Assembly: GCF_019720895.1 (NCBI RefSeq)
Contig: NZ_JAHKSH010000003.1
Coordinates: forward strand, 62,001 to 126,000
Source of the DNA: Microbacterium salitolerans
GTDB lineage: Bacteria > Actinomycetota > Actinomycetes > Actinomycetales > Microbacteriaceae
Direction of reading: 5' to 3'
DNA length: 64,000 nucleotides
Within the stretch, counting starts at the first letter, position 1, and every line of letters begins with the position of its first letter. The position numbers and the translations under genes are program-made. This document shows positions 18,404 to 62,024 of this stretch, in pieces. The notes below the pieces were generated by a model. The model saw only the letters and a list, made by a program, of their open reading frames with translations. It was not told the DNA's origin and ran no database searches.

Positions 18404-21488
<3,085 letters not shown>

Positions 21489-49511: not shown

Positions 49512-49606
49512 GTGTGCCCTCCCGCGTCGTCGGATCTTTCGTCCATCCTGCCACGGCGGGCCCCATACCGGCGAGGGAATCGAGGTTCTCTGCGAGAATG
49601 GACCCC

Positions 49607-50164
49607 ATGACTCAGCACACCGCCGTCGCGACCGTTCACACGAACCACGGCGACATCGTGATCAACCTGTTCGGCGACCACGCACCCGTCACGGTCGACA
49701 ACTTCATCGGCCTCTCGACGGGCGAGAAGGAGTGGACGGATCCGCGCACCGGCGAGAAGGGCGACGGCCCCCTCTACAAGGACGTCATCTTCCACCGCAT
49801 CATCCCCGGCTTCATGATCCAGGGCGGCGACCCGCTCGGCCAGGGCGTCGGCGGTCCGGGCTACAGCTTCGACGACGAGATCCACCCCGAGCTGCACTTC
49901 AACGAGCCCTACATCCTCGCGATGGCCAACGCGGGCAAGCGCCCCAACGCGATCACGGGCAAGATGAGCGGCACGAATGGCTCGCAGTTCTTCGTGACGA
50001 CGGACCCGACCCCGTGGCTCCACGGCAAGCACACGATCTTCGGCGAGGTCGCAGACGACGCCTCGAAGAAGGTCGTCGACGCGATCGCCGCCATCCCGAC
50101 CGGCGCGATGGACCGCCCGAACGAGGACGTCGTCATCAGCTCGATCGACATCGAGAAGCTCTGA
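49607..50164 (+). CDS. ppiA: Cyclophilin-type peptidyl-prolyl cis-trans isomerase
   Basis: Cytoplasmic proline isomerase, 185 aa. Cyclophilin signatures: VIFHRIIPGFMIQGGDP with the catalytic Arg, SGTNGSQFFVTT, and LHGKHTIFGEV. The ATG at 49607 is the second of two close in-frame ATGs (the other at 49598). The gene opens the locus ppiA-rhomboid-crgA-sortase-pknAB that lies near the replication origin in many actinobacteria. No signal peptide. Confidence 0.95.
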   Translation: MTQHTAVATVHTNHGDIVINLFGDHAPVTVDNFIGLSTGEKEWTDPRTGEKGDGPLYKDVIFHRIIPGFMIQGGDPLGQGVGGPGYSFDDEIHPELHFNEPYILAMANAGKRPNAITGKMSGTNGSQFFVTTDPTPWLHGKHTIFGEVADDASKKVVDAIAAIPTGAMDRPNEDVVISSIDIEKL

Positions 50165-50210: not shown

Positions 50211-51122
50211 GTGACGTCGACCTCGTACCCCGACAACCCCGACAACTACTGCTATCGGCATCCTGATCGGCGGAGCTTCGTGCTGTGCCAGCGCTGCACA
50301 CGCACCATCTGCCCCGAATGCCAGACGCAGGCCTCCGTCGGCTTCATCTGCCCCGAGTGCATGAAGGAGCAGAGGAAGAACCGCACCCCCGCGCAGAAGA
50401 AGGCGGCTCGTCGCTGGAAGCGCCGCTCGGGGGGAGGATCCGCGCTCGCCTCGTTCGGATCCGGTGACACGAAGGTCATGACGACGATCTTCATCGTCAC
50501 GGCCGTCGTCTACCTCCTGCAGATGCTGGGCCGCGTCGTGCCGGGGTTCGACGTCCAGTCGTGGCTCCTGTTCTACGCGCCCTATCTCTATCCCGAGCTG
50601 CTCGGCACGTTCCAGCCGTGGCGGATCCTCACGGGCAGCCTGGTCCATTCGAGCTTCTGGCACATCGCGCTGAACATGCTCGCGCTGTGGATGCTGGGGC
50701 GCTCGCTCGAGCCGCTGCTCGGATCCGGGCGGTTCCTCGCGACCTACCTGCTGAGCGCGGCGGGCGGATCCGCGGGCGTCGCACTGCTGTCGTTCGGCAC
50801 GCCCGTCGTCGGCGCCTCCGGTGCGATCTTCGGCCTGTTCGGCGCGCTGCTCGTCGTCGGCCGGCATCTCGGGGCGAACATGACGGGCCTGTACGTCGTG
50901 CTCGGCATCAACCTCGTCATCGGGTTCATCCCGGGGATGGGGATCTCGTGGCAGGCGCACGTCGGCGGCCTGGTGACCGGCGCGCTCGTGGGCCTGGTGC
51001 TCACCCGCACGCGTCGCGCGAAGCAGAAGCGCCTGCAGATCGGGCTGCTCTGCCTGGTGGGCGCGCTCATCGTCGCGGCCTTCCTCGTGCCGCCGCTCAC
51101 GGGCTTCGTCTCGCTCACCTGA
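50211..51122 (+). CDS. Rhomboid intramembrane serine protease with N-terminal zinc-finger-like domain
   Basis: Membrane protease of 303 aa. Residues 14-52 carry paired cysteines and histidine (CYRHPDR, CQRCTRTICPEC, CPECMKEQ) like a treble-clef or B-box zinc site, then a basic linker and six transmembrane helices. Catalytic Ser is in GASGAIFG, the conserved His-Asn pair in HIALNMLALW and the catalytic His in AHVGGLVTG. The GTG start lies 46 bp after ppiA. The 3' side is followed by the DnaA-box array. The cytoplasmic zinc-site module is common in actinobacterial rhomboids; its role is unknown. Confidence 0.93.
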   Translation: MTSTSYPDNPDNYCYRHPDRRSFVLCQRCTRTICPECQTQASVGFICPECMKEQRKNRTPAQKKAARRWKRRSGGGSALASFGSGDTKVMTTIFIVTAVVYLLQMLGRVVPGFDVQSWLLFYAPYLYPELLGTFQPWRILTGSLVHSSFWHIALNMLALWMLGRSLEPLLGSGRFLATYLLSAAGGSAGVALLSFGTPVVGASGAIFGLFGALLVVGRHLGANMTGLYVVLGINLVIGFIPGMGISWQAHVGGLVTGALVGLVLTRTRRAKQKRLQIGLLCLVGALIVAAFLVPPLTGFVSLT

Positions 51123-51141
51123 GCGTCGTTCTGCGCGGGCC

Positions 51142-51346
51142 CCGTCCACACCTTTCTCCACAGGGTGGGCGGGGTTCTCCACAGGTCTGGGGAATCTGTC
51201 CACCGATCGGGGTGAGTTCTCCACCGTCCGTCCACGTGTTGTCCACCGAAATCCCGGGGTTATCCCCGGGGTTATCCACAGATTTGTCCACAGGTGGGGA
51301 GAATCACACGGGTGTTATTCACAGGTGGGGACACGGATGTGGATGA
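51142..51346. other. Array of DnaA-box-like 9-mers (oriC-like element)
   Basis: The 304-bp spacer 51123-51426 has no gene. It holds TTATCCACA (51272), TTGTCCACA (51284), TTCTCCACA (51154, 51175), TTGTCCACC (51239), TTCTCCACC (51217), TTATTCACA (51315), TTATCCCCG (51260), CTGTCCACC (51196), CCGTCCACA (51142), CCGTCCACG (51228), all on the plus strand, plus one on the minus strand at 51338. Steps between starts are 12, 21, 21, 21, 11, 11, 21, 12, 12 and 31 bp, that is, multiples of about 10.5. Confidence 0.8.
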
Positions 51347-51426
51347 ATGACAACGGTGTGATTCAGGCTCGATGAGGGTCGGGGGAGGCCTCGTCGGAGC
51401 CCTCCGCTCGGCGTAGCATCGACGGC

Positions 51427-52095
51427 ATGTGGAGCGAGCGCGCGTCGTCGCACGATGCGATCCGCACGGTCTGGTCGGCTCGAGTCGAGCAGGCTGGTCG
51501 CTATCCGGTCGCTGCGAGCGAGCACTGGGGGCTCTCGTTCGTCCGCCATGTCGATGAGACGGTGACGTGCGAGCTCGACGGGCCGACGCTCGCCCCCCGC
51601 ATCCTGGACGGCGTGATCGGCGAGGAGTACTGGGGCGTCGAGTGGCAGTCGCACGTCTTCATGCGAAACATCGACAAGAGCGCCGTCATCGGCGAGACCG
51701 TCGCGCTCCCCGTGCGCGACGGCCGGGTCGTCCTCGACGGATCCGCGGTGCCCGTCCCGACGGCCGACGGTCTGGAGGAGTTCGTGGTCGCGCTGCTCGA
51801 CACGGGCGTCGTCGTCGCAGATCCGGACGTGCGGCGCGCGCTCGCGGGCGACAGGACGGGGTTCTCGCTGCGGGCATGGCAGCGCCGGTTCCGGCGGGTC
51901 ACCGGGTTCTCGCAGGTGCAGATCGCACAGCTGGAACGCGCGCGGCACGCGTATCGGCTGCTGCAGGAGGGCATGCCGTGCGCGGGGGCGGCGGTGCGGG
52001 CGGGATACTCCGACCAGGCCCACCTCACGCGCGCGATGCGGGTCTTCCACGGGCAGACTCCGGCGCGGATCCTCGCCGGAGAACTCCCGAGCTGA
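51427..52095 (+). CDS. AraC-type transcriptional regulator
   Basis: Regulator of 222 aa. The N-terminal part resembles the short beta-barrel-like sensor of DUF6597-type AraC proteins (VTCELDGPTLAPRILDGVIGEEYWGVEW, residues 43-70); the C-terminal half is the double HTH with SLRAWQRRFRRVTGFSQVQ and AGYSDQAHLTRAMRVFHGQTP. It is followed after 80 bp by a VOC-domain gene which it may control, a common arrangement. Both genes interrupt the otherwise conserved order rhomboid-crgA and look like a later insertion. Confidence 0.85.
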   Translation: MWSERASSHDAIRTVWSARVEQAGRYPVAASEHWGLSFVRHVDETVTCELDGPTLAPRILDGVIGEEYWGVEWQSHVFMRNIDKSAVIGETVALPVRDGRVVLDGSAVPVPTADGLEEFVVALLDTGVVVADPDVRRALAGDRTGFSLRAWQRRFRRVTGFSQVQIAQLERARHAYRLLQEGMPCAGAAVRAGYSDQAHLTRAMRVFHGQTPARILAGELPS

Positions 52096-52782: not shown

Positions 52783-53019
52783 CTAGCGCCAGCGCGTGGC
52801 CATGATGAGGCCGATGAACGCGAGGCCGCCGCCGATCGCGAGATTCCAGGCGTTGATGCCGGGGATCGGGAACTGCGAGCCGGAGAGATAGAACACGAGG
52901 ATCCAGACGAGCCCCAGCAGGAAGAACGTCACCATGACGGGCTTGAACCACACCGGGTTGGGGAGCGGCTCACCCGGGATGTGGGTGACGTCGTCGTCCT
53001 CGTTCTTCTTTCGAGCCAT
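52783..53019 (-). CDS. crgA: Cell division protein CrgA
   Basis: Small division protein of 78 aa with two transmembrane helices (about 27-46 and 57-75) and a charged cytoplasmic N-terminus; NPVWFKPVMVTFFLLGLVWI and the ending MATRWR are typical. CrgA coordinates septal assembly by contacting FtsZ, PBPs and other divisome proteins. The ATG at 53019 is preceded on its strand by TAGACT about 8 bp upstream, so the mRNA may be leaderless or have a very short leader. The gene is divergent from the sortase gene, as in other actinobacteria. Confidence 0.95.
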   Translation of the reverse strand: MARKKNEDDDVTHIPGEPLPNPVWFKPVMVTFFLLGLVWILVFYLSGSQFPIPGINAWNLAIGGGLAFIGLIMATRWR

Positions 53020-53094
53020 GTCGGTCAGTCTACGGGAGGCGGCGGCGCGCGGGGATTCCGAGAGGAGTGTCGGATCCGCGGGTACCCTCATATC

Positions 53095-60693: not shown

Positions 60694-62024
60694 TGCTGGT
60701 CACCTCCGTCGGAAGGGGTCGGCGAGGGGGAGGGCCTCTGCGAGGGGCGCGGGGACGGCGTGGCGTCGGCCTCGGGCTCCTCGTCGATGTCCTCGCCCAG
60801 TCGGGAGCGCAGGTTCTCGACGATCTGCTCGGCGTCCTCGAGAGAGTCGGCCGCGATCGTGTCGTCGACACGATCGCGCCACGCGTCGGGCAGCAGGTCG
60901 AGCTCGATCTGCGTGTCTTCGTGCGGGGTCGCCAGCGAGATCGGGCCGACCGTCTGCTGGATCCCCTGGTAGATCACGACGGTGTCGGCATCGGTGCCGA
61001 CGTAGTAGCGCGTCTGCGTCCAGCTGTAGAAGGCCCAGGCGCCGGTGGCGATGGCCGCGAGGAGCAGCACGAACGCGGTGATCCCGACGATGCGGCGGCG
61101 ACGCGCGCGTCGGCGATCCTCGGCGATGAGCTCCTCGAGGTACTCCGTGTCGGGCTCGAAATGGCTCGGCTCGTTGGCGGCCGCGCGCTGCGGATGCAGC
61201 CACCCCGTCGGCAGCAGCGACCGCGAGGCGGGCACGACGACGCCGTCGGGGTTCGACGCGGAGCCCACGATCGTGGGGGTGCCCGTGTACAGCGGGTGCT
61301 GGCCGCCCACGTCGACGATGACGATCGTCACGTTGTCGGGCGCACCCCCATCGAGCGCCTGCTTCAGCAGGTTGTCGGCTGTGCGCGCCGGCGGCATCTC
61401 CTGCTTGAGCGTCTTCGAGATGTGCGCCTCGTCGACGACGCCCGACAGCCCGTCCGAGCACAGCACCCACCGGTCGCCCGGCCGGGTCGGCATGATGAAC
61501 GTGTCGACCTCGGGATCCGGATCCATATCGCCGAGCACGCGCATGAGCACCGAGCGGCGCGGGTGGAAGCGCGCCTCCTCCGGGGTGATGCGCCCCGTCT
61601 CGACGAGTCGCTGCACGAACGTGTGGTCGGTCGTGATCTGCGTGAGGTCGCCATCGCGATAGAGATAGATGCGCGAGTCGCCGATGTGGCCGATGACCGC
61701 GTACTCGTCGACCATGACGATGCCGCTCACGGTCGTGCCGAGCCCTGCGAGCTCGGGCTTGCGCGCCGCGACGTCGATGAGATCGCCCGCCGTCGACGTG
61801 ATCACCGTGCGCAGCGCCTCCTCGGCGTGCGCGGGGGAGTCGAAGTGCGCGTCGAGCTGCTGCAGCTCGCTGATCACGACGGCCGAGGCGACGTCGCCGC
61901 CGGCGTGGCCGCCCATGCCGTCGGCGACGACGAACAGATTCGAGCCGGAGTAGCCCGAATCCTGATTGTTCGACCGCACGCGCCCGGTGTGGGAGATCGC
62001 GGCGCTGGAGCCCTCGAAGACCAT
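60690..62024 (-). CDS. pstP: PP2C-type Ser/Thr phosphatase PstP
   Basis: Opposes PknA/PknB; 444 aa. The PP2C domain has SNNQDSGY near the N-terminus, DGMGGHAGGDVAS, GHIGDSRIYLY, CSDGLSGVV and DNVTIVIVD, holding the metal-binding aspartates. A linker of about 90 residues, one transmembrane helix (VFLLLAAIATGAWAF type, near 310-332) and an extracellular domain ending in a Pro/Ser-rich tail follow. Start at 62024; FhaB ends 10 bp upstream. Confidence 0.95.
   Translation of the reverse strand: MVFEGSSAAISHTGRVRSNNQDSGYSGSNLFVVADGMGGHAGGDVASAVVISELQQLDAHFDSPAHAEEALRTVITSTAGDLIDVAARKPELAGLGTTVSGIVMVDEYAVIGHIGDSRIYLYRDGDLTQITTDHTFVQRLVETGRITPEEARFHPRRSVLMRVLGDMDPDPEVDTFIMPTRPGDRWVLCSDGLSGVVDEAHISKTLKQEMPPARTADNLLKQALDGGAPDNVTIVIVDVGGQHPLYTGTPTIVGSASNPDGVVVPASRSLLPTGWLHPQRAAANEPSHFEPDTEYLEELIAEDRRRARRRRIVGITAFVLLLAAIATGAWAFYSWTQTRYYVGTDADTVVIYQGIQQTVGPISLATPHEDTQIELDLLPDAWRDRVDDTIAADSLEDAEQIVENLRSRLGEDIDEEPEADATPSPRPSQRPSPSPTPSDGGDQQ

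Follow-up and report, generated by a model that had tools for sequence, protein, structure and literature searches.

In mycobacteria, the gap between Rv0010c and Rv0011c is bound by DnaA in vitro, and the homologous region of M. smegmatis is bound in vivo (PMC7738170). Variants at this site are associated with longer cells, a phenotype whose mechanism is left open, and the available portions of the report see no obvious equivalent of the site elsewhere and describe the expression of both neighbouring genes as unaltered in dnaA mutants (PMC7738170). The site analyzed here lies in Microbacterium salitolerans, within a stretch of 64,000 nucleotides termed the window (positions 62001–126000 of contig C10, a 658-kb contig in an assembly of 3.46 Mb and 21 contigs). 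The spacer behind a rhomboid protease gene in this window contains an array of DnaA-box-like 9-mers around a composite core of ~ 49 bp, made of DnaA boxes and a palindrome. This element is very probably not an origin but probably a chromosomal DnaA-control site near crgA, at which DnaA would be held or changed in state. Judged by layout and neighbouring genes, the mycobacterial site is its counterpart: both occupy a gap beside crgA and near ppiA, and both combine a DnaA-box cluster with a small palindrome. The window differs by a second palindrome and by seven additional boxes upstream, and DnaA binding, published for the mycobacterial site, is predicted for the element described here.

The box array and its 49-bp core

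Ten boxes were located on the plus strand within 182 bp (starts at 51142, 51154, 51175, 51196, 51217, 51239, 51260, 51272, 51284 and 51315) when up to two mismatches to TTRTCCACA were allowed, and three further boxes were found on the minus strand (51295, 51326 and 51338). An earlier sequence-only reading of the window had counted about eleven boxes of one orientation in this interval; ten of them stand, but the eleventh, at 51228, carries three mismatches. The two perfect boxes that it reported were confirmed at 51272 and 51284 and correspond to boxes A and B of the core. The 9-mer at 51315 overlaps the first palindrome and is possibly not a true DnaA box. Dinucleotide shuffling of the spacer (1000 shuffles) yielded a mean of 0.79 boxes and a maximum of 5, with no shuffle reaching ten. 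When all 182-bp intervals beginning at a box were ranked along the contig, the array came first with 11 boxes on both strands, followed by the dnaA-dnaN spacer and by an interval ahead of dnaB, each with 6 boxes.

The start-to-start steps of the ten boxes are 12, 21, 21, 21, 22, 21, 12, 12 and 31 bp. Their best period is 10.8 bp (resultant 0.92; periods of 9.5–12.0 bp scanned); phasing at exactly 10.5 bp, the helical turn proposed earlier, is weaker (resultant 0.59, Rayleigh p ~ 0.03). The sequence-only reading had also proposed comparing the spacer with that of related genera; within the genus, in M. suaedae (L073), the register of the array is preserved. Identity between the two species is 86% for box bases (85/99) versus 56% for the bases between boxes (49/87). 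The boxes have thus diverged less than the intervening sequence and appear to be constrained.

The core consists of the tandem boxes A and B, an opposed box C and the palindrome AATNACACNNGTGTNATT. The version shared among relatives comprises two tandem boxes 12 bp apart, A (TTATCCACA) and B, the opposed box C (TGGGGA...) and a 20-bp palindrome, GAATNACACNNGTGTNATTC, with box A perfect in 71/78 and 35/40 of the relatives that have the element (named loci and further family genera, respectively, as defined below). By this comparison the array has grown locally out of a conserved element of 49 bp, and the seven boxes upstream of box A (51142–51268) represent a lineage-specific addition to the core. 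The second copy of the palindrome also occurs in M. suaedae (L073), M. excoecariae (L074) and M. sorbitolivorans (L075).

Conservation and the mycobacterial counterpart

Conservation within the genus and family was assessed in 80 named loci from a rhomboid search, nearly all labelled Microbacterium, together with 40 further family genera, hand-picked from at least 74 genera with a rhomboid match, and the genome under study. The element was found downstream of the rhomboid gene in 119/121 regions. A crgA gene was found in 116/121 regions and is convergent with the rhomboid gene in 115 of those 116, which argues that the element is not an ordinary promoter. Only an island of ~ 49 bp is conserved, with the flanks at background level. 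The core is inverted in 35/78 named loci and in 4/40 family genera, and retention in either orientation is the behaviour expected of a DNA site. One of the two regions lacking the element (L107) belongs to a contig that ends 112 bp after the rhomboid gene; the other is considered below.

Elements were picked by a palindrome with at most three mismatches and the best box offset, a procedure that biases the conservation profile. At the offsets tried, 112/119 elements showed three or fewer mismatches in box plus palindrome, and the seven that exceeded this number were judged by eye to contain indels or weaker boxes in the core. By hand estimate, ~ 0.06 such palindromes are expected by chance per 1.5-kb region. 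The family sequences G139, G210 and G311 were left out of the conservation set, and G180, L131 and L089 additionally out of the alignment behind profile R1, which used 44 of 47 sequences.

A further motif was seen in many Microbacterium loci (L077, L079, L083, L084 and others), in which GTTAAC direct repeats ~ 11–12 bp apart lie just past the palindrome. GTTAAC-like repeats are also present in the dnaA-dnaN spacer of the genome under study. The repeats past the palindrome resemble an OmpR-type (MtrA-like) site.

Profile R1 is a sequence-only profile trained on family copies, including the one in the window, so that only matches outside the family are independent. Among the matches listed, R1 was found in 126/149 genomes of the order at E ≤ 0.01 and in 113/197 genomes of the class at E ≤ 0.001; both counts include the own family and partial, box-only matches and are upper bounds for the full element. 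Neighbourhoods were examined in 59 genomes outside the family, comprising the best-ranked loci and 20 that were fetched, and thus the better-scoring matches. In 57 of these 59, crgA, a rhomboid gene or ppiA was present in the same stretch (tblastn E ≤ 0.05), with crgA in 44, the rhomboid gene in 51 and ppiA in 39. In several genomes of one family of the order (f11), two R1 matches were observed 170–570 bp apart, for example at G409:C13:10803 and 10991 and at G456:C1:860754 and 861135.

Another family (f31) retains one part of the element. All 21 of its genomes match R1 at E ≤ 1 in the DnaA part only, with no listed match extending beyond model position 39. The 12 loci examined (L346–L357) all lie in the rhomboid-crgA gap and keep the DnaA triple, but where other copies carry the palindrome they show one more opposed DnaA box. 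Because this family keeps the DnaA part in the same gap without the palindrome, the DnaA part is the more widely kept module.

Matches to R1 were also obtained in 11 genomes of one genus (g134 of family f19), with E values from 2.4e-9 to 6.7e-6. This genus was taken as Mycobacterium on the grounds that its PpiA closely matches chain 1w74, which we take to be from a mycobacterium. In the four Mycobacterium-like loci examined (L288–L290 and L294) the element lies between ppiA and crgA and, as a difference from the window, no rhomboid gene was found. Rv0011c is crgA, consistent with the crgA matches beside the element in the loci examined. Four of the five DnaA-bound regions of mycobacteria likely have counterparts in M. 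salitolerans, judging from the oriC cluster, the cluster before dnaB, a single perfect box before dnaA, and the present array.

The palindrome and the setting of the element

Sites resembling the palindrome (at most two mismatches) were few per genome in all 119 genomes of the genus, among the matches listed, and a reversed-pattern control gave near zero. The other good sites in the genome under study precede a WhiB-family gene and phoH2. A whiB-family gene adjoins the palindrome in 11/11 Microbacterium genomes examined (11/20 loci), and the remaining 9/20 loci have neither whiB nor phoH. Of 18 class-level palindrome loci, 5 are whiB-family (two of them Mycobacterium-like), 11 are the crgA-gap element and 2 are neither. 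A phoH-type gene was considered as a second common target and rejected, as the phoH query matched 0/20 Microbacterium and 0/18 class-level palindrome loci.

No DnaA box (at most one mismatch to TTATCCACA) was found within 80 bp of the 16 whiB-adjacent palindromes. Because it stands alone before whiB-family genes, the palindrome is probably the operator of a second, non-DnaA regulator. HigA2, an antitoxin of M. tuberculosis, binds an ATCAC-N6-GTGAT palindrome in vitro, including the Rv0010c site, according to the available portion of its report (PMC11205783). This motif fits the palindrome described here, and a helix-turn-helix factor of the HigA2 sort is a plausible candidate for its binding protein. 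A BldD-like half-site has a one-base centre, whereas the palindrome here has two bases at its centre.

Coordinates of the element and its neighbours are collected in Table 1. In M. salitolerans two ORFs, the AraC-type gene and another, separate the element from crgA, whose 3' end lies ~ 1.5 kb away versus ~ 0.13 kb in M. suaedae. A conserved RNA was rejected as an explanation of the spacer, since no Rfam family matched window positions 51000–51500 at E ≤ 1 and the inverted copies point to an element that acts as DNA. Compared with shuffled versions, the spacer has a stronger fold (z −2.98; 2/100 shuffles fold equally well), as the palindromes and repeats would produce.

Table 1 Features of the element, its neighbourhood and related sites in M. 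salitolerans. Plain numbers are window positions; contig (C) and locus (L) positions carry a prefix.
Feature	Position	Strand	Remarks
ppiA (cyclophilin-type isomerase ORF)	49514..50164	+	PF00160; upstream neighbour of the element
Rhomboid protease gene	50211..51122	+	PF01694; ends immediately before the first box
Array of ten same-strand DnaA-box-like 9-mers	51142..51323	+	Steps near multiples of 10.8 bp
Core element (profile R1)	51271..51320	+	54.8 bits; R1 was trained on 44 sequences, own copy included
DnaA box A, perfect TTATCCACA	51272..51280	+	
DnaA box B, perfect TTGTCCACA	51284..51292	+	12 bp downstream of box A
Opposed DnaA box C (TTCTCCCCA)	51295..51303	-	Overlaps palindrome 1
Palindrome 1, GAATCACACGGGTGTTATTC	51301..51320	.	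Probable operator of another regulator
Opposed box TCATCCACA	51338..51346	-	Precedes palindrome 2
Palindrome 2	51345..51364	.	44 bp from palindrome 1
AraC-type regulator gene	51427..52095	+	PF12833; between element and crgA
crgA (division protein)	52783..53022	-	PF06781; convergent with the rhomboid gene
Box cluster upstream of dnaB	C10:259880-260078 (L014 end, L015 1-80)		Joint second densest on the contig; L015 234-1616 is DnaB
Palindrome before phoH2-type gene	C8:112745 (L155 ~1501)		
Lone palindrome before WhiB-family gene	C14:334608 (L158 ~1501)		

Origin, control site or local regulation

The sequence-only reading had noted that neither dnaA nor dnaN lies in the 64 kb and had offered the true oriC as one explanation of the array. 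Both genes are indeed outside the window, on the same contig, with dnaA at ~ C10:17.26–18.67 kb and dnaN starting at 19264. The spacer between them is rich in boxes, several of them perfect or near-perfect, with other boxes on both strands, and the array lies 94 kb from dnaA instead of beside dnaA and dnaN. The share of coding on the plus strand rises at dnaA, from 0.21 to 0.73 in the genome under study and from 0.39 to 0.68 in M. suaedae, and changes at the array of the genome under study from 0.73 to 0.65. With regard to an AT-rich unwinding element, the lowest GC content over 40 bp is 0.475 at the array versus 0.425 in the dnaA-dnaN spacer. A GC-skew analysis, which had been suggested as a check, gave a divided answer: the cumulative minimum of the contig falls inside the array (C10:113160), but the curve is nearly flat for the 90 kb between dnaA and the array, and the contig reaches no further than 17 kb ahead of dnaA. 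Over the 400 kb examined in M. suaedae, the minimum lies between the two sites and at neither. The distance from dnaA, regarded earlier as odd, is large in this genome, but separation as such is usual: dnaA and the rhomboid gene are 11–50 kb apart in 102/105 Microbacterium genomes that have both on one contig (genus median 15 kb), the exceptions being the genome under study (94 kb), M. suaedae G039 (104 kb) and G111 (98 kb).

That the array is a relocated oriC of this lineage is thus highly improbable. The ten phased boxes on one strand, the skew minimum and an oriC-type box triple would suit such an origin, but the box-rich dnaA-dnaN spacer exists, the strand bias switches at dnaA in both species, the gene neighbours of the element are retained throughout the class, and its distance from dnaA varies within the genus. 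Gene order and strand bias mainly decide the matter, despite the skew minimum. The oriC of M. salitolerans itself contains the same triple of boxes A, B and C (C10:18877–18907, a box-only R1 match), so the triple is not specific to a control site. This oriC differs from the element in lying beside dnaA, in having other boxes on both strands and in showing no palindrome match among the matches listed.

The other proposal of the sequence-only reading, a second DnaA-binding regulator of initiation outside oriC of the titration or DARS-like kind, is probably correct. DnaA would assemble on boxes A–C of the core, and a second protein would bind the palindrome; because the palindrome overlaps box C, the two could help or exclude each other. 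As the element usually lies 11–50 kb from oriC in the genus, it would be copied soon after initiation. DnaA on the element may then be kept away from oriC or undergo a change of nucleotide state, and the palindrome-binding protein, acting also before the whiB-family gene, may tune the DnaA complex and tie it to division, so that the suggested link of the site to division is supported as a possibility. In M. salitolerans the seven extra phased boxes on the same strand would enlarge the DnaA platform and favour a head-to-tail filament. Whereas the anatomy of the element, its conservation and its synteny are observed, we infer that DnaA binds it in this species, in which direction initiation would be affected, that a second protein takes part and that division is coupled to it.

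Two sub-cases of this control-site reading differ in what happens to DnaA. A titration site like datA or the Streptomyces clusters, which would sequester DnaA in the vicinity of oriC and so postpone re-initiation, with the palindrome incidental, is quite possible. The array is the densest box cluster of the contig, lies outside oriC and has ten boxes on the plus strand, and according to the available text the essential boxes of datA, itself near oriC, share one direction, and S. coelicolor and B. subtilis have DnaA-box clusters that are said to repress untimely initiation (PMC5742627). The clusters of all three systems, like the element, consist of DnaA boxes outside oriC and often near it. 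They differ from it in that a fixed 49-bp composite core, which also includes an opposed box, is kept here across the class, and most relatives hold only about three core boxes yet retain the spacing and the palindrome, beyond what a sink would need. The alternative sub-case, in which the opposed triple reloads DnaA with ATP and the palindrome-binding protein replaces IHF and Fis, is somewhat doubtful. The core shares the topology of the E. coli DARS1 and DARS2 cores, in which a tandem pair with a 12-bp step faces a single opposed box, and the site of a second protein adjoins it, as the sites of other proteins adjoin the DARS2 core. However, the step from the opposed box to the next is 9–12 bp, where DARS1 and the triple taken as DARS2 have 14 bp, the gene neighbourhood is another one, and an identical triple is found in the oriC of this genome. 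We lean slightly towards holding over reloading because the array is unidirectional, a feature that it has in common with datA.

A transcriptional control site for a neighbour, whether the rhomboid gene, crgA or the AraC-type gene, is unlikely. The palindrome does precede whiB-family genes elsewhere, the AraC-type gene starts 62 bp past palindrome 2, and the available portions of the mycobacterial reports place the site upstream of Rv0010c and describe higher Rv0010c expression in the absence of HigA2 (PMC7738170, PMC11205783). Against this stand the convergence of the rhomboid gene and crgA on the element, the inverted copies, a consensus scan in which no sigma-70-like promoter or terminator was found, and the unchanged neighbours in mycobacterial dnaA mutants as far as reported (PMC7738170). 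A broader and more tentative idea, less likely than not, is an ancient actinobacterial two-protein checkpoint, in which DnaA and a division regulator (the factor of the whiB site) would meet on one site and the second protein would switch DnaA between holding and releasing, thereby timing initiation with septation. The site would then stay beside crgA because both belong to the same circuit.

Besides the skew minimum and the triple shared with oriC, several observations weigh against a DnaA-control site that is served by a second protein and kept across the class. The mycobacterial palindrome has been read as two DnaA-box-like sequences and not as a second operator, and in the available text it is placed 65 bp upstream of the Rv0010c start, where a local transcriptional role is possible (PMC7738170). 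The increase of Rv0010c in the absence of HigA2 (PMC11205783) and the 62 bp between palindrome 2 and the AraC-type gene likewise weigh against the control-site reading. Among the 59 genomes examined outside the family, 9 have a context marked only by a distant rhomboid (28–41% identity), and 2 have no context gene, their stretches being short (1574 and 1631 bases) and apparently contig ends. In M. halotolerans (L086), no R1 match, palindrome or convincing crgA was found in the 20.9 kb examined, which suggests that the element can be lost or moved.

A DnaA site in the crgA gap was already known from mycobacteria. The open-licence PubMed Central literature searched, in the portions available, described neither an element spread across the class nor the occurrence of the palindrome ahead of whiB. 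What would be new is the conservation across the class, the separable two-module build, the palindrome common to whiB upstream regions and the enlarged array. The restraint of DnaA in actinobacteria is largely an open subject, and the mycobacterial site has a cell-length phenotype without a settled function in the available account (PMC7738170). If the control-site reading is correct, the mycobacterial site would be one member of a class-wide element that can be studied in other genera, and the palindrome would belong to a second protein common to the whiB upstream region. A cryptic site would thereby become a defined question, namely which protein binds the palindrome and how it affects DnaA, and the enlarged array of M. 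salitolerans would provide a natural experiment in the size of a DnaA platform.
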